From the NCBI GenBank assembly GCA_021798635.1, contig JAJZGH010000015.1, positions 1-33,793 on the forward strand: a stretch of 33,793 nucleotides of DNA. The letters are read 5' to 3'. Of this stretch, positions 7,524-14,451 are shown piece by piece. Position 1 is the first letter of the stretch; the number at the start of each line of letters is the position of its first letter. The position numbers and the translations under genes are program-made. The notes beneath the pieces were generated by a model. It saw only the letters and a list, made by a program, of their open reading frames with translations, made no database searches and was not told the origin of the DNA. The stretch is from Planctomycetota bacterium (lineage in GTDB: Bacteria; Planctomycetota; Phycisphaerae; WQYP01).

Positions 7524-7734
7524 AGGTGGGGAATTGTAACGTTTGTCAGCCTCTGCGGCTAATGGGTTTGAAATTTGCCGTTGGATGTGCTGTTTTGCCA
7601 TGGCCTGGATCAACTGGAATGTTGATACGATTCAATTTCATGCCGCCAAACATGCTTCCGTCGAGGGCGGAGAGGGTTCGGTGCAGGAGTTGGCATTTGC
7701 CAAGAGGTAAATCTGCTGGACGTTTTTTGAGGAG

Positions 7735-7759
7735 TGGGGAAATGTGGAGGAGCATGAAA
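7735..7759 (+). promoter_or_regulatory. 10-bp-spaced TGGGG/TGGAG/TGAAA repeat, possible MraZ-type boxes
   Basis: TGGGG (7735-7739), TGGAG (7745-7749) and TGAAA (7755-7759) are each separated by exactly 5 nt. Known MraZ operators are direct TGGGN repeats with 5-nt spacers upstream of mraZ. The first repeat matches well and the last poorly. They lie 220-240 nt before mraZ, farther than usual. Confidence 0.3.
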
Positions 7760-7861
7760 AAATATTTTGTGGCATAAAAATTTTCAAAATGTCCACTAAT
7801 AGTGTTGTATCCATATTTTTCGCTATATATTGTGTCAACTGGTTTGTGCTCTTTTATCTAT

Positions 7862-7907
7862 TCCCATGTTTTCCCCTAATGTGGAGCAAAAAGTATTGAC
7901 TTTCCCA
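7862..7907 (-). promoter_or_regulatory. TGGGA/GGGGA repeats overlapping the mraZ promoter, candidate MraZ operator
   Basis: On the minus strand TGGGA (7862-7866) and GGGGA (7872-7876) are separated by 5 nt, the spacing of known MraZ boxes. A third TGGGA (7903-7907) sits between the -35 and -10 elements of the mraZ promoter, about three helical turns away. Orientation is opposite to the E. coli arrangement. Autorepression by MraZ is the inferred role. Confidence 0.35.
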
Positions 7908-7923
7908 AAAGTTTTTGTATCCT
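7896..7923 (+). promoter_or_regulatory. Promoter of mraZ
   Basis: A -35 TTGACT (7896-7901), 16-nt spacer and -10 TATCCT (7918-7923) lie about 55 nt upstream of the mraZ ATG. The 454-nt aroC-mraZ gap is AT-rich around it (7780-7930) and otherwise holds no gene that I can support. Confidence 0.6.
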
Positions 7924-7977
7924 ATAAACCGATGAAGAGAACAGCAGGATTTAAGTGTGTTTGAAGGTTGAGCTTGG

Positions 7978-8460
7978 ATGTATCTGGTAGGGTCATACGA
8001 GCACGTCATCGATGCCAAGAATCGCTTGGCAATTCCTTCCGCACATCGGCAGGAAGTGCCTGAATCCCCATCTGGAAAAAAGCGATTCTATGCTCGCCCG
8101 GTCCAGATGCCCGAAGCCAACGGCGAAAAGCGACGTTTTGTTGAACTGATTCCGGAGCCGGTTTTTTTATCGCTGGCGGAGAAGGAAAAAAAAGAGGATA
8201 GCCTGGAAATGGCAGTTGACGAACAGGATCGTCAGTTAAGTCTGTTTGCGGGCGTCAAGATTCTGGAAATTGATGAGCAGGGTCGCGTTGTAATGCCGGA
8301 TGATTTTCTGGATCGTCCCGAAAAGAAGGCCAGCCGATTCGCAATCAATATTCTGGGAAGAGATGTGGTACTTGCGGGAGTTGGTTCCCGTCTGCAGGTT
8401 TGGAACGCCGAGGAATATCACCGCCGTTTTGATGGAGCCGGCAGAGTCCGGGCGGTGTAA
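7978..8460 (+). CDS. mraZ: Transcriptional regulator MraZ
   Basis: A 160-residue protein with two SpoVT/AbrB-like swapped-hairpin repeats typical of MraZ. The first starts YLVGSYEHVIDAKNRLAIPS (family form: GEYEHtiDaKGRlaIPa). The second contains EIDEQGRVVMPDDFLDRP and ends with a VVLAGVGSRLQVWNAEEYHR segment. MraZ is the first gene of the division/cell-wall cluster and in other bacteria represses that cluster by binding its own promoter; candidate boxes are present upstream. It is somewhat longer than E. coli MraZ (152) because of a charged insertion around residues 60-80 (EKEKKEDS). The ATG at 7978 has a weak ribosome binding site (GAAGG, 10 nt upstream). Downstream there is an unusual structured RNA region instead of an immediate rsmH start. 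Confidence 0.94.
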   Translation: MYLVGSYEHVIDAKNRLAIPSAHRQEVPESPSGKKRFYARPVQMPEANGEKRRFVELIPEPVFLSLAEKEKKEDSLEMAVDEQDRQLSLFAGVKILEIDEQGRVVMPDDFLDRPEKKASRFAINILGRDVVLAGVGSRLQVWNAEEYHRRFDGAGRVRAV

Positions 8461-8470
8461 AAAATACAAT

Positions 8471-8803
8471 CAGGAGCAAATCTTCCAGCCAAGGATGGTC
8501 GCGAAGGTAAAGCTCCCCACGCAAGGACGCGTGCGTACGTAAGGCTTCTGCTGTCGCAGGGACGTGACATAAAAGAAGCCGACACAGGGCGAATAGCGGT
8601 ACAGGCACTTCATGGACGAAATGTCTGTACCGCCGCCCCCGAACAACGGCCTAGTGCGACTGAACAGGACGTTCAGTTTCCGCTCGCCAGGAACTCAAAG
8701 GACTGAGGCTTTGGCGTCGCTGAATTTCACGGACGAACATGCTCGGGCCATGGAAGGCATGGCGGGGACACGTACCGGCCAGTCGTGTCCCTGTCTTTTT
8801 TTT
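8471..8803 (+). ncRNA. Candidate CsrB/RsmZ-like small RNA: multi-hairpin region with A(N)GGA loops
   Basis: No protein is needed to explain this stretch. It folds by eye into serial hairpins whose loops repeat the CsrA/RsmA recognition motif. Loops and stems: AAGGAT at 8491-8496 (3-bp stem); AAGGAC at 8523-8528 (CACGC/GCGTG); AGGGAC at 8558-8563 (TGTCGC/GTGACA inside GGCTTCT/AGAAGCC 8543-8580); ATGGAC at 8612-8617, on a long helix 8587-8638 with GCGGTACAG/CTGTACCGC; AGGAC at 8666-8670 (ACTGAAC/GTTCAGT); AAGGAC at 8698-8703 (CTCA/TGAG inside CGCCA/TGGCG); ACGGAC at 8729-8734 and ATGGAA at 8750-8755 (3-bp stems). Two further AGGA lie unpaired at 8472 and 8689. It ends in an intrinsic terminator. 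A TACAAT (8465-8470) could be a -10, but no good -35 is seen, so it may instead be processed from the mraZ transcript. Function as a CsrA sponge is inferred. Confidence 0.6.
8765..8803 (+). terminator. Intrinsic terminator between mraZ and rsmH
   Basis: GGGACACG (8765-8772) pairs with CGTGTCCC (8784-8791) around an 11-nt loop. Four bases later there are eight T (8796-8803). It ends the structured RNA 84 nt before the rsmH ATG, so rsmH needs readthrough or its own promoter. Confidence 0.8.
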
Positions 8804-8862
8804 AATTTTTCTGCCGGGCCGTGGCCGTTCCACGTCCCCGCTTTAATGTTATCGGGTTTGGG

Positions 8863-8885
8863 GCTGCGGCGTAAGCCGTTGCAGC
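8863..8885 (+). promoter_or_regulatory. Hairpin with GTAA loop directly before the rsmH start codon
   Basis: GCTGC-GGC (8863-8870) pairs with GCC and GCAGC (8875-8877, 8881-8885) around a GTAA tetraloop with a GTT bulge. It ends 2 nt before the ATG. No Shine-Dalgarno is visible here, so the hairpin may limit or shape rsmH translation. Role unproven. Confidence 0.3.
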
Positions 8886-8887
8886 AC

Positions 8888-9793
8888 ATGGATACGGCCC
8901 AGCATGGTCATGAACCCGTCCTGCTTAATGAAGCATTGGAATTACTGTCGGCGCAAAGCGGCGAAACAATTCTTGATTGCACCACCGGACGAGGGGGGCA
9001 CGCTTTGGCCCTGGCGAAGAAGATTGGAAAATCCGGTACCCTGGTGTGTCTGGATGTCGATCCGGGCAACCTGGAATTCGCCCGAGAACGGCTAAAAGAC
9101 GCTGCCCCTCATTGCCGGTTCTTTCAGGCAAATTTCGCGCAATTGGGCGATGTCCTGGATGCGGCAGATATTCCCGCCGTGGATGTGATTCTCGCGGATC
9201 TTGGAGTGTCGACCAATCAGATGTTGTCTGAACAGTATGGTCTGAGTTTTACGGTTGACGGCCCCCTGGATATGCGACTTGATCCACGTTTAGAGCATAC
9301 CGCGGAGGAACTGGTAAACGGCTTGCCTGAAAAGCAGCTCGCGGATCTGATATTTAACAATGCGCAGGATCGTCTTTCCCGGCGAATTGCCCGGAGCATT
9401 GTTCAGGCGCGGCGCGTAAAAAAAATTACGACAACCGCGCAACTGGCAGCCCTGGTAAGAGCGGCCGTGCCGTATACACGTTTTGGCCAGATTGATCCAG
9501 CGACTCGCACGTTTCAGGCCTTACGCATGGAAGTGAATCATGAAATGGAGAATCTTTCCGAGTTGTTAAAAGCCGCTCAATCCCGGCTGAAGCCCGGTGG
9601 ACGAATCGGGATTATCAGTTTCCATTCCGGAGAGGACCGAGTAGTAAAACAGATGTTCAGGCAATGGGCCTCCGACAACCGGTGTGACGTATTAACATCC
9701 AAGCCCATTGTTCCGACGGAATTTGAAATGGCGTCCAATCCACGGAGCCGAAGCGCTAAAATGCGGGTTGCTCGAATGCGGATGGATGAGTAA
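8888..9793 (+). CDS. rsmH: 16S rRNA (cytosine-1402-N4)-methyltransferase RsmH
   Basis: SAM-dependent methylation of the 16S rRNA decoding-centre base C1402. The ATG at 8888 gives MDTAQHGHEPVLLNEALELL, the expected HxPVLLxE opening, and a 301-residue protein of normal length. The SAM-binding segment is ILDCTTGRGGHALAL, followed by VCLDVDP. Further landmarks are ILADLGVSTNQ, GPLDMRLDP, the RIARSIVQARRVKKITTTAQ helix, RTFQALRMEVNHE, GRIGIISFHSGEDRVVK and the C-terminal NPRSRSAKMRVARM. An open frame back to 8612 runs through the structured RNA and terminator and is not coding in appearance. ATG 8846 is a possible alternative start. No ribosome binding site is obvious at either. The usual next genes ftsL and ftsI are missing; a LysM protein follows instead. 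Confidence 0.95.
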   Translation: MDTAQHGHEPVLLNEALELLSAQSGETILDCTTGRGGHALALAKKIGKSGTLVCLDVDPGNLEFARERLKDAAPHCRFFQANFAQLGDVLDAADIPAVDVILADLGVSTNQMLSEQYGLSFTVDGPLDMRLDPRLEHTAEELVNGLPEKQLADLIFNNAQDRLSRRIARSIVQARRVKKITTTAQLAALVRAAVPYTRFGQIDPATRTFQALRMEVNHEMENLSELLKAAQSRLKPGGRIGIISFHSGEDRVVKQMFRQWASDNRCDVLTSKPIVPTEFEMASNPRSRSAKMRVARMRMDE

Positions 9794-10881: not shown

Positions 10882-12717
10882 TTATTGCGGTGGACCGGCT
10901 CCCTGGCCGGCTTGCATGGACTGCATTTCCATCATCATCGCCAGCGGCAGCAGGGCGTGAATACGCGTGGAGAGTTGCTCCAAATTCTTCATGGGCATGC
11001 GCCACTGCCCCGTTAAGCTGTTATGGTGCGTTGCCAGGCTCATGGACATTGGCTCGGTAGCCGGTAACTTCATTATCGGGCTGTTCATATTAGCCATGGC
11101 TTCAAGTCGCTGGGTGATGGCCGCAATAATCGGCGACGGATCGACATACATAACCATTGAAGCATGCGGAAGTATATGGCTCTTAGCGGCAACGATCCCG
11201 GGATTAGAATCCAGGGCATCGGAGCCTGCCGCAGCCGCTTTGACTGACTCGGCAAGGAATTTATGACTGCAGTTACCGCCCACAATCAGTTGATTGCTGT
11301 TGCTGCCTATTAAATAAGTCTGTGTGCTAATTCCCAGCAGATTTTGCTGCATTTTCATCGCGCTGCGGATGGCATCGTTCTGGGGCGTGCCGGCCGCCGG
11401 TAAAACCATAGATTGAGTGACGGTGGTGAAAGGTATTGAACCAACGGTAACTTTCTCAGGTGCGACAGCCATGTCGTATTTCACGTTGGTTCCCATGCTC
11501 AATTGAAAATGTGAGAGCCAACGCCCCTCACTGGCCAACAGGTGCACCATCAATGCGGCGGTGGCGGCCGGCGTTGTGGACTTGGCTAATCCGACGCTGG
11601 ACATAACAGGACCCTTGGTCTTGGAAGAGTCAATAACCAGCGTGTTGCACTGCGAGAGCGGTTGTATAAGTGCGGCAATTTGCCTGATTATCTTAGGAAG
11701 CTGTACATGACTGCCAGTGCCCGACGCTGCGGCTTTGGGAAGTTCCCCCGCCCAATGATTCAACATTTTTGCGGCCATCGCACCGTCAATATTATTGGCC
11801 ACCGCCTCGAAAAACTGGGCGGAGTCCGGCAGTCCCGCCAGCGGCTTTTCCGCCAGTGGCCTCAGGCATTTCAGGGCTTGGGCAATCTCCGATCCGGATT
11901 TTTCATCTGAAACCATCGACAGTGTCAGCGCACTGGAGGTAATCCGCAATCCAAGCAGTGCGGAATGTGTATCATCCGCCAAACGCATGGCGACTTTCCG
12001 GCCAATGGTTTTCAGTTCCGATCCATGGGTAGCTTTACCGCCGGCATTGGTTTGGTCCGCCGCGGTTGGGCCGGTTCTATGAAGGGCTTCTTCCAGAGGT
12101 TTACGAAGCTGGGGAATATTCACCAGCACATAAACATCGGACTTCTCGGCCAGAGGTTGTTCGGATTCCGTGAGCATAGGGGTTATGGCTGTGCCGACGG
12201 TTTTGCATTGCAACAAGGCTCCATGATGTTGTGAAACCATAATGCAATGTTTGCCCGCGACGGCATAAATATTCTGGCCATTGGCGGTTTGGCCGTGCTC
12301 CACGCCATCGGTGCCGGTGGAAAAATTCATATTGCCAATGGCGGCCGCGGGGTCCTTGGCGGGCAGAATCATAACAGCGTGGCCCGGGCCTCCCGTAGCG
12401 CTGTTGGGAATGACCACGATTGCTGCCGTGCCATGGGCCGTGATTCCACGCGGCAAATTCAACGATTTTTCGATGTGCCGTAAGGATGGCGGCAATACCG
12501 GAATTTTCAGATTTTGGGCCAGCATTGCGACTTTTTTATCCAAGGCCGCCATGTCATGAATAATTATCACCGCCTGTGCGGTGGCGGGAATATTAGCGAG
12601 GATCTTGGCGTCAGCGGCGGAATTTCCTGGGTTCGTACCGGCGGCCAGTATGGGGGCGCCACCAAGTAGCAGGCATGCTATCGCGGCTGCTTTAAGTAGG
12701 TTCGTGCGGTTCAACAT
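10882..12717 (-). CDS. Exported protein of unknown function (tandem relative of the upstream gene)
   Basis: A 611-residue protein with a Sec signal peptide (MLNRTNLLKAAAIACLLLGG, then a hydrophobic stretch and AAG near residue 27). The mature part opens with an ILANIPATAQAVIIIHDMAA segment, a P-x-x-A-x-x-V-V-x-x-x-D pattern. It also appears, in looser form, in the neighbouring upstream protein (LPSTSALCVICNNVAQLDQR). It is Ala/Gly-rich with alternating strands and helices, no transmembrane segment apart from the signal, and a Met/Gln-rich C-terminus. I do not recognise a catalytic motif. The ATG at 12717 has AGGAG about 9 nt upstream. The gene follows the 562-residue protein after 45 nt and is very likely in the same operon. 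It could be a DUF3352-like exported protein, but that is a guess. Confidence 0.7.
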   Translation of the reverse strand: MLNRTNLLKAAAIACLLLGGAPILAAGTNPGNSAADAKILANIPATAQAVIIIHDMAALDKKVAMLAQNLKIPVLPPSLRHIEKSLNLPRGITAHGTAAIVVIPNSATGGPGHAVMILPAKDPAAAIGNMNFSTGTDGVEHGQTANGQNIYAVAGKHCIMVSQHHGALLQCKTVGTAITPMLTESEQPLAEKSDVYVLVNIPQLRKPLEEALHRTGPTAADQTNAGGKATHGSELKTIGRKVAMRLADDTHSALLGLRITSSALTLSMVSDEKSGSEIAQALKCLRPLAEKPLAGLPDSAQFFEAVANNIDGAMAAKMLNHWAGELPKAAASGTGSHVQLPKIIRQIAALIQPLSQCNTLVIDSSKTKGPVMSSVGLAKSTTPAATAALMVHLLASEGRWLSHFQLSMGTNVKYDMAVAPEKVTVGSIPFTTVTQSMVLPAAGTPQNDAIRSAMKMQQNLLGISTQTYLIGSNSNQLIVGGNCSHKFLAESVKAAAAGSDALDSNPGIVAAKSHILPHASMVMYVDPSPIIAAITQRLEAMANMNSPIMKLPATEPMSMSLATHHNSLTGQWRMPMKNLEQLSTRIHALLPLAMMMEMQSMQAGQGAGPPQ

Positions 12718-12762: not shown

Positions 12763-14451
12763 TTAGAATAGTGCGCCAGCAGGATTGCCGGACAAACTTT
12801 GCTCCAACGTTGCCACGGGTATATATACTTGGATAACTAACGATTTTCCGCCGGCCCCCACGCTGACCACCGCCGGCGGCGGGGGAAGCCCCAAGGCAAG
12901 CGCATTGGCGGCCTTCGAGGTGGGGACCGCATTTTGTTGCTGCGTCCAGCGGGCGATGGGCAAATACGCAACCAAGAAGCTTCCGGGTACCACTCGCGCT
13001 AAGGTCTGCGTTAAACCGGGCCGCTTCATGACGGCTGTAAGATTGTTACCGGCGGCGGTAACGGCTGATTTTAATAATGGATGCGGGACACCCACGCACA
13101 GCAGCACGCCATGAGTCCTCATATTGATTAGCTCAACAGTAGGCGAGGTTCTTATGGGCTTTTGTGTCGGCCCGACAATGCGGATCACCTGATAGCCCAT
13201 GAGGGTGCTATGGGTAAGATTCTTATCATCCGGTGGAGCGGTTTTAGTCCGCACATACGCTAGGTGGCTAAAATAACCCGCCAGGTCGTGCATTTCTGTT
13301 GTAGGATGTTTACAGTGCATAATGATTATCGCGGGGCCTGAACCCCAATGATTTAGCGGCCCTCGGCCCGCGCTCGAGGGCGTTGAGGGTGGCAGCCCGA
13401 TCGCGGCAGCGCCGGTGTGATCCGCGACGGCGGCCAAAATCTGAGGAAATTCCTGGATTGCGGTGGAGCGCTTATGCCTTGGAGAGCCTGGGCTGTTTTC
13501 TACTTTGGCGGGCAGCAAGGTTTTCAACCATTTGGCAACCGACGGCCCATCGATGCTGTCGGCATAGAGCGAAAAATAACGCTGATCTGGCAGCCCGGCG
13601 AGGGCGTGGGCCGGCAGAGGTGGCTGCGCGGCAACTAGTTGAGCCATGGGAGAATGTGCATGAAAAGCATTGGTCAAATTAACAATCAAAGCCTGTCGGC
13701 CAAAATGCAGCGTTAACAGGCTTCGGTTTAGGTCGGTGCTCAATTGTTTGCTTAATTTATTTCCTATCTGCTGCAGCAGCGATTTGAGAGCGGGACTGCC
13801 AACTGGCAACGGATTACCGGGCATCGCTGAAAATAACATGGCCTTTGACGGATCGACTAACTCTTTTCGTATGGCGTGCGTATCGGCTTCCACGGCGATA
13901 TCTGCATGGCGTAGCGCCACAGGCAGATGGCCAGGCAGCGTCAGGTGGGATTTTGCTTGCAGATACATTTTTAATGCTGAACGCGAGGCGGAAATAAACG
14001 TCCATACTCCGCGCGTTGCGATAAAGGCGGGAGTGCCTTCAATGCGTGCCGGTGTTATTCCGCCCCGGGCGGCACCATTTTTGAGGCTGGCGATAAATTT
14101 TGCGGTGTTGGTCGTTTGCAGAATCACCACGGACTGGCGCAATTCGAGGATTTTTCCTTTGGCCGGTGATGGCATCACCCAGGCCATTGGAGCGGAGATA
14201 TTCCAATAAGGCCCCAGAACCATTTTCAGGGCGGTAAATTCATCAAATTGCGGTTGCCGGCCCGTGATGCGCCGTTCAAGCCGGGTAATGCGTTGATCGA
14301 GCTGTGCCACATTGTTGCAGATCACACACAAGGCGCTGGTTGAAGGAAGTTCGCGGATAATCGAGCTTGTTGGAGCGCCGGCTCCGTGGGCGCAAATAGT
14401 CACTCCCAACAACGGCCATGCAGCGGCGGCAGCCCGGCGGCGAAATTGCAT
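12763..14451 (-). CDS. Exported protein of unknown function, first of a tandem pair
   Basis: A 562-residue protein starting MQFRRRAAAAAWPLLGVTIC, a signal-peptide-like N-terminus with a probable cleavage after CAHGAGA. The next segment (SIIRELPSTSALCVICNN) matches the opening of the mature downstream protein in pattern. A short coiled stretch (AQLDQRITRLERRITGRQ) follows. The C-terminal third contains a VVPGSFLVAYLPIARWTQQQ segment and a strand-rich end. No catalytic motif was recognised. The ATG at 14451 is preceded by a strong GGAGG with a short 4-nt spacer. It is the promoter-proximal gene of a two-gene minus-strand operon with the 611-residue relative, so the two products probably work together in the periplasm or at the cell surface. 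Confidence 0.7.
   Translation of the reverse strand: MQFRRRAAAAAWPLLGVTICAHGAGAPTSSIIRELPSTSALCVICNNVAQLDQRITRLERRITGRQPQFDEFTALKMVLGPYWNISAPMAWVMPSPAKGKILELRQSVVILQTTNTAKFIASLKNGAARGGITPARIEGTPAFIATRGVWTFISASRSALKMYLQAKSHLTLPGHLPVALRHADIAVEADTHAIRKELVDPSKAMLFSAMPGNPLPVGSPALKSLLQQIGNKLSKQLSTDLNRSLLTLHFGRQALIVNLTNAFHAHSPMAQLVAAQPPLPAHALAGLPDQRYFSLYADSIDGPSVAKWLKTLLPAKVENSPGSPRHKRSTAIQEFPQILAAVADHTGAAAIGLPPSTPSSAGRGPLNHWGSGPAIIIMHCKHPTTEMHDLAGYFSHLAYVRTKTAPPDDKNLTHSTLMGYQVIRIVGPTQKPIRTSPTVELINMRTHGVLLCVGVPHPLLKSAVTAAGNNLTAVMKRPGLTQTLARVVPGSFLVAYLPIARWTQQQNAVPTSKAANALALGLPPPPAVVSVGAGGKSLVIQVYIPVATLEQSLSGNPAGALF

Follow-up and report, generated by a model that had tools for sequence, protein, structure and literature searches.

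The window, a stretch of 33,793 nucleotides from a Planctomycetota bacterium (contig JAJZGH010000015.1), contains a region of about 330 nt (8471–8803) with a series of GGA-loop hairpins. A preliminary description made from the sequence alone had placed it between mraZ and rsmH, and Pfam matches on both sides agree with this position. The gene following rsmH encodes a LysM protein (Pfam), and the first stem of the RNA starts 12 nt past the mraZ stop codon. For comparison we used a close set of seven genomes, i.e., the window and six Planctomycetota MAGs (L001–L006) with RsmH identity of 80–92%; L007 and L008 (35–37% identity, other phyla by title) were left out. As one of the relatives is titled Phycisphaerales, the class is presumably Phycisphaerae. 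The features of the locus are as follows:

7896–7923, + strand: putative sigma-70-type mraZ promoter, TTGACT-16-TATCCT (consensus scan and conservation)
7978–8460, + strand: mraZ (Pfam MraZ, E 1e-12)
8473–8516, + strand: 5′ domain of the RNA, outer stem 8473–8477/8512–8516 enclosing hairpin 1, loop AAGGAT (consensus fold, covariation, loop GGA invariant in 7/7 genomes)
8518–8533, + strand: hairpin 2, loop AAGGAC (detector, close-genome alignment, covariation)
8552–8569, + strand: hairpin 3, loop AGGGAC (detector, close-genome alignment, covariation)
8587–8638, + strand: long hairpin 4, loop ATGGAC at 8612 (fold, detector, two-sided changes in four pairs)
8658–8678, + strand: hairpin 5, loop AGGAC (detector, close-genome alignment, covariation)
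8694–8707, + strand: hairpin 6, loop AAGGAC (detector, alignment; stem without two-sided change)
8726–8737, + strand: hairpin 7, loop ACGGAC (detector, alignment; invariant 3-bp stem, partly competing fold)
8747–8758, + strand: hairpin 8, GCC[ATGGAA]GGC, adjoining the terminator (detector; 3-bp stem, partly competing fold)
8761–8803, + strand: putative intrinsic terminator, conserved loop GCCAGTC (sequence, conservation, order-wide recurrence)
8888–9793, + strand: rsmH (mraW), the downstream gene (Pfam Methyltransf_5, E 2e-88)

The promoter at 7896–7923 is the probable source of the transcript carrying the RNA. Since the consensus scan of 7700–9000 returned two sites against 1.1 in shuffled sequences, the match by itself is weak, and support for it comes from conservation: it is present in all seven close genomes, with an identical −35 element and a −10 element of TATCCT or TATGCT, while the segment just upstream (7760–7890) has diverged (mean difference 0.37). 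The same scan listed no sigma-70-like promoter in the stretch that separates mraZ from the RNA, where an sRNA of the GacA/UvrY-controlled Csr/Rsm type would have a promoter of its own, and third codon positions at the 3′ end of mraZ were not unusually conserved, giving no hint of a hidden promoter there. Nor did it list a separate promoter for rsmH downstream of the terminator, which may thus serve that gene. Immediately upstream of the mraZ −35 element, at 7860–7895, blocks of TCCCA and TTTCCC/TTGCCC are kept by eye in the seven close genomes. They resemble NGGGN repeats spaced by 10, which we take to be the form of MraZ operators, and the transcript carrying the RNA may thus be MraZ-autoregulated.

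The intrinsic terminator proposed earlier corresponds to a 12-bp stem (8761–8772/8784–8795) followed by eight T residues, with a core dG of −15.9; it was not among the features listed by the consensus scan of 7700–9000. Across the seven genomes, 93% of the columns of 8764–8803 are invariant. The terminator loop (8773–8783) carries a conserved GCCAGYC-like sequence, found also in many loci of the order, which exceeds what a terminator needs. Elsewhere in the window, two large ORFs of 611 and 562 aa on the − strand (10882–12717 and 12763–14451) gave no Pfam hit at an E limit of 0.001.

The hairpin array and its controls

All ten A(N)GGA motifs reported in the preliminary description are present in 8471–8803. 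It had assigned eight of them to hairpin loops, and a detector that looks for [N]A[N]GGAN[N] loops closed by three or more contiguous pairs returned exactly eight hairpins, hairpin 1 at 8488–8499, hairpin 4 at 8609–8620 and the others at the coordinates listed above; its rule was drawn up after the finding was known, and the minimum stem was cut from four to three pairs after the first run. The remaining two motifs, at 8473 and 8690, look like non-sites: the former is buried in a stem in the structural ensemble (probability of being unpaired 0.00–0.01), and the GGA of the latter is lost in 4/7 close genomes. The region 8440–8810 folds far better than its shuffles (z = −6.46). In the ensemble six of the loops are mostly open (probability unpaired 0.72–1.00); the loops at 8731 and 8752 are open in part (0.38–0.66), which is a weak point of the array.

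Against eight hairpins in 8471–8803, 5000 dinucleotide shuffles gave a mean of 0.34 and a maximum of 3, and the remaining 333-nt windows, scanned on both strands in 20-nt steps, a maximum of 3. When the loop core was replaced by each of the other 63 trinucleotides, the mean was 0.46 and the maximum 4, for AGG, which overlaps the motif; GGA is thus the commonest core in loops among the 64. As shuffles, other cores and other windows reach at most 3–4, the eight-hairpin array is not a product of chance. A further weak point is that four of the eight stems have just three contiguous pairs; with a minimum of four pairs the detector found four hairpins, vs. a maximum of two in 2000 shuffles.

Conservation in close relatives and in the order

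By BLAST, the RNA is present in all six nearest relatives, in one copy each. Each of the eight loop GGAs is kept in 7/7 genomes, while the preceding N differs among the genomes in four loops and the following base in seven, in agreement with the selection on the loop that had been proposed. The mean difference among the seven genomes was 0.10 for the RNA and 0.036 for the terminator, compared with 0.17 for the spacer before rsmH, 0.18 for rsmH and 0.10–0.11 for mraZ. Indels of 1–2 nt occur within the RNA among these genomes, which indicates that the region is non-coding. An open frame running from 8612 into rsmH (8612–9793) was considered as an rsmH extension and ruled out by the same indels.

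To examine covariation, we used an alignment of eight rows, consisting of the seven close sequences and the more distant A3, under its own consensus fold, in which two short hairpins were placed by hand instead of long-range pairs. Under this structure 97.2% of alignment cells pair, a percentage biased by the structure being drawn from the same alignment; counts of compensatory changes are the better evidence. Two-sided changes were found in 15/91 pairs vs. 4.9 in shuffles (0/500 as high) and 1–3 in slid controls. The number of further pair types (41) was not clearly above that of the shuffles (37.8; 33/500 as high), and hairpins 6, 7, and 8 showed no two-sided change in their own stems in the eight-row alignment. 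Overall, the loops are kept and the stems covary, as the preliminary description had anticipated for this RNA.

A model of the RNA (R1) matched 17/28 genomes of the window's order at E up to 1, the weakest match being G007 (0.017), and all 11 hits outside the training genomes sit between mraZ and rsmH. Under stricter filters it matched 14/150 class genomes, all members of the same order. Because R1 found members of this order only, we extended the survey by running the hairpin detector on the sequence preceding rsmH. For the order, we collected 26 rsmH loci from 25/28 genomes, of which 24, from 24 genomes, have mraZ upstream. These genomes are draft MAGs, so contamination is possible for single cases, e.g., G007 with two rsmH genes. 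In all 24 mraZ-linked loci the gap holds 3–8 GGA hairpins, on average 6.1, compared with 0.12 on the reverse strand and 0.42 in shuffles, and 23/24 are significant at p ≤ 0.01. In the two loci that lack mraZ, the last 500 nt contain 0 and 2 hairpins. On visual comparison, stems vary from one subgroup to another; in most loci the last hairpin is akin to hairpin 8. A terminator-like hairpin is present in 23/24 linked loci vs. 3.2 expected from shuffles, and in 22/24 at a stricter setting.

Hairpins, CsrA and FliW across the class and phylum

Among 150 class genomes, 145 had an rsmH match, and 109 further loci, mostly better-scoring ones, were taken from the matches listed. One was too short; of the 108 examined, 76 have mraZ. 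Outside the order, at least three hairpins were found in 36/76 linked loci, compared with 0/76 on the reverse strand, and 29/76 were significant at p ≤ 0.01 (200 shuffles each). The 32 class loci without mraZ had 0–2 hairpins in the last 500 nt. The phylum sample comprised 119 genomes, 112 with a match, from which 40 loci were picked for their RsmH score and the quality of their contigs; of the 39 examined, 34 have mraZ, and the sample may contain some class members. Here at least three hairpins were seen in 2/34 linked loci (mean 0.38 vs. 0.31 in shuffles) and none was significant at p ≤ 0.01; the gap measures at least 150 nt in just 22/34, and the other 12 could hardly hold an array. A search of 20 phylum loci against Rfam gave nothing at gathering score. 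Two gaps of this sample, L175 and L178, with three GGA hairpins each, share a block of about 230 nt that is nearly identical by eye, while much of the remaining gap differs. This block may represent a distant second form of the RNA.

Class loci outside the order differ in architecture. Among the 75 linked loci whose gap measures at least 150 nt, the terminator signal is near chance (18/75 vs. 11.7 expected), and in 39/75 a family of small ORFs of about 80 aa (e.g., L107, L101, L106) provides the longest reading frame of the mraZ–rsmH gap; for one example, a Pfam search with an E limit of 0.1 gave no match. The terminator signal was detected in 8/39 loci with the small ORF vs. 5.6 expected and in 10/36 without it vs. 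6.1. For 16 small-ORF loci the start could be placed: 13 have an AAAGGA ribosome site, and their leaders hold 0–4 GGA hairpins, with at least one in 11/16. The family occurs in 14 of the 36 class loci with at least three hairpins. With the first possible codon taken as the start, 26 of the 54 hairpins of these 14 loci lie before the ORF, 18 inside and 10 after it, so that these loci are not clean leaders. In the order, the small ORF is the longest one in 0/24 loci, and the array is longer and terminator-capped. We read this as a putative CsrA-controlled leader in part of the class vs. a terminated sponge in the order, and the change would have run from leader to sponge.

As CsrA is the candidate ligand, its distribution is relevant to the function of the array. 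Among relatives of the window's genome, csrA is present in 6/6 nearest genomes and 27/28 of the order, and further in 140/150 class genomes. Two or three csrA matches were found in 22/28 order genomes; beside a protein scoring near 90 bits, most have a second CsrA type (about 62–69 bits, e.g., L015, L014), and the RNA might serve one paralogue only. Residues L4, R6, V42, and R44, which we take to be the RNA-contact residues of CsrA, are present in one example of each type. One CsrA example matches solved CsrA-family chains including 2jpp, the entry used in the RNA-binding section of PMC7652899. Loci from genomes without a csrA match, included as a negative control, did not give a uniform picture. 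An array is nevertheless present in 4/10 such class genomes (G027, G045, G138, G153), a number for which genome completeness matters. G038 and G073 have one hairpin each, G079 has a linked locus with no hairpin and a second locus without mraZ, and the loci of G047, G055, and G067 fall outside the hairpin count.

FliW, a protein antagonist of CsrA, was detected in 16/28 order genomes, in all 16 encoded upstream of a csrA match, within about 500 nt and on the same strand; the FliW match is weak in 13/16 (28–52 bits), all above the 25-bit cut-off. The array co-occurs with the fliW–csrA pair in 15/16, the exception being G008, which has no mraZ-linked rsmH locus. In a 2020 review, FliW and sRNA antagonists of CsrA are called mutually exclusive (PMC7366521), and in PMC7652899 fliW is described as anti-correlated with BarA-UvrY and the joint action of FliW and sRNAs as undetermined. 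These genomes offer a concrete place to test the joint action of FliW and CsrB-type RNAs.

Function of the array and comparison with known systems

The preliminary description had interpreted the region as a CsrA element, either a titrating RNA or a controlled leader. The conserved loops and covarying stems support this interpretation, in whichever of the two forms. The region is very probably a conserved CsrA-type binding array to which CsrA binds, and we estimate a probability of roughly 0.6 that it acts mainly as a CsrA sponge in trans; in the window's order titration is favored because the array is dense and terminator-capped. According to this reading, the structured RNA of about 330 nt, with eight CsrA-type hairpin loops and a terminator-like hairpin at its end, would arise from mraZ transcription as the 3′ portion of a terminated message, whole or processed. 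The 12-nt spacing from the mraZ stop codon and the lack of an internal consensus promoter are consistent with such a 3′-UTR origin. The RNA would sequester CsrA dimers and thereby free mRNAs otherwise repressed by CsrA, and CsrA activity would track mraZ/dcw transcription.

The main alternative places the array in the untranslated region before rsmH, as a leader or attenuator that responds to CsrA; binding would alter the fold and hence termination near 8796–8803, or the stability of the rsmH mRNA, in cis. We consider it unlikely, yet it has several points in its favor: there is no consensus promoter from the terminator to rsmH, the mraZ–rsmH position is kept in all 11 remote model hits, of the 16 placeable small-ORF loci of the class 13 have the AAAGGA site and 11 have 1–4 hairpins in the leader, and the UpsM RNA of R. 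sphaeroides is described as a dcw leader whose terminator yields an sRNA (PMC5089854). On the other hand, eight sites are in our judgement many for a leader, the consensus folds show no antiterminator pairing, and fewer than half of the hairpins (26/54) precede the small ORF in the class loci rich in them.

Less probable still is a dual-function RNA, i.e., a CsrA-regulated part of an mRNA that also titrates CsrA. The flaA leader of Campylobacter jejuni provides a precedent (PMC4894983), and it would suit the gradation across the class, where gaps with few sites stand at one end and the dense, terminated array at the other, but the sequence gives no distinction between this and the sponge reading. 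A non-CsrA element (a structured RNA of other function, an N-terminal rsmH extension or chance) is very improbable: the open frame from 8612 and the four array-bearing genomes without a csrA match speak for it, whereas the frame-breaking indels, the shuffle, core and window controls, the lead of GGA (8) over AGG (4) among the 64 cores and the presence of csrA in 27/28 order genomes speak against it.

If the sponge reading is true, CsrA is linked to the dcw cluster. In a broader scenario, which we offer tentatively, the lineage would control CsrA by both FliW and a CsrB-like RNA, the latter driven by an MraZ-regulated dcw promoter, so that transcription for cell wall and division would set global post-transcriptional control; the sponge would have arisen from a class-wide CsrA-regulated leader. 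The relatives span few-site gaps to the dense terminated array, and a leader may have become a sponge along this range.

The RNA at 8471–8803 had no match to any Rfam 15 family, CsrB included, at E up to 5; for the whole window, Rfam gave one tRNA at gathering score and three further weak hits at E up to 5, all outside this region. In one of eight order genomes scanned, the relative's RNA matches Rfam CsrB (RF00018) over the whole model with 37.1 bits (E 1.1e-6), below the Rfam cut-off of 71 bits. The name of the TwoAYGGAY motif presumably stands for paired AYGGAY loops, a likeness to those of the window. This motif was reported from human gut, gamma-Proteobacteria and Clostridiales, and the mraW RNA motif (RF01746), named after the same gene and without an Rfam match in the window's RNA, from Actinomycetales (PMC2864571). 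Titles and abstract openings among the open-access matches listed mention no RNA that binds CsrA, be it from Planctomycetota or the mraZ–rsmH gap; the word Planctomycetes is absent from the main text of a study predicting CsrA sRNAs (PMC5568370), and the available passages of PMC9029176 hold nothing on CsrA-sponge RNAs.

Among systems of other bacteria, Xanthomonas RsmU (PMC7694677) is similar in being a CsrA/RsmA-type RNA proposed to derive from an mRNA 3′ UTR. In contrast to the window's RNA, known here from sequence, RsmU is reported as experimentally shown, with XC1332 (ComEA) as host gene and four predicted GGA motifs. UpsM of Rhodobacter sphaeroides is likewise an sRNA formed by a terminator in a dcw untranslated region, but it precedes mraZ, and its abstract makes no link to CsrA (PMC5089854). 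The flaA leader of C. jejuni is similar to what is proposed here in its mRNA-borne titration of CsrA, described as occurring jointly with FliW, in a genome with fliW; unlike the array, it is the leader of a translated mRNA and has two GGA hexaloops (PMC4894983). The CsrB family is described as widespread in Gammaproteobacteria (PMC7652899). The RNA of the window resembles CsrB/RsmB (RF00018), CsrC, and RsmY/RsmZ in its many A(N)GGA loops on differing stems, its putative intrinsic terminator and the csrA genes of related genomes, and, without matching RF00018, it appears to act in the manner of CsrB/RsmZ. It differs from gammaproteobacterial CsrB in its Planctomycetota host, in following mraZ and in having no promoter of its own in the scanned region, from E. 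coli CsrB in having eight sites vs. 22 GGA motifs (PMC7652899), and from the gammaproteobacterial RNAs in that 15 order genomes carry both the array and fliW.
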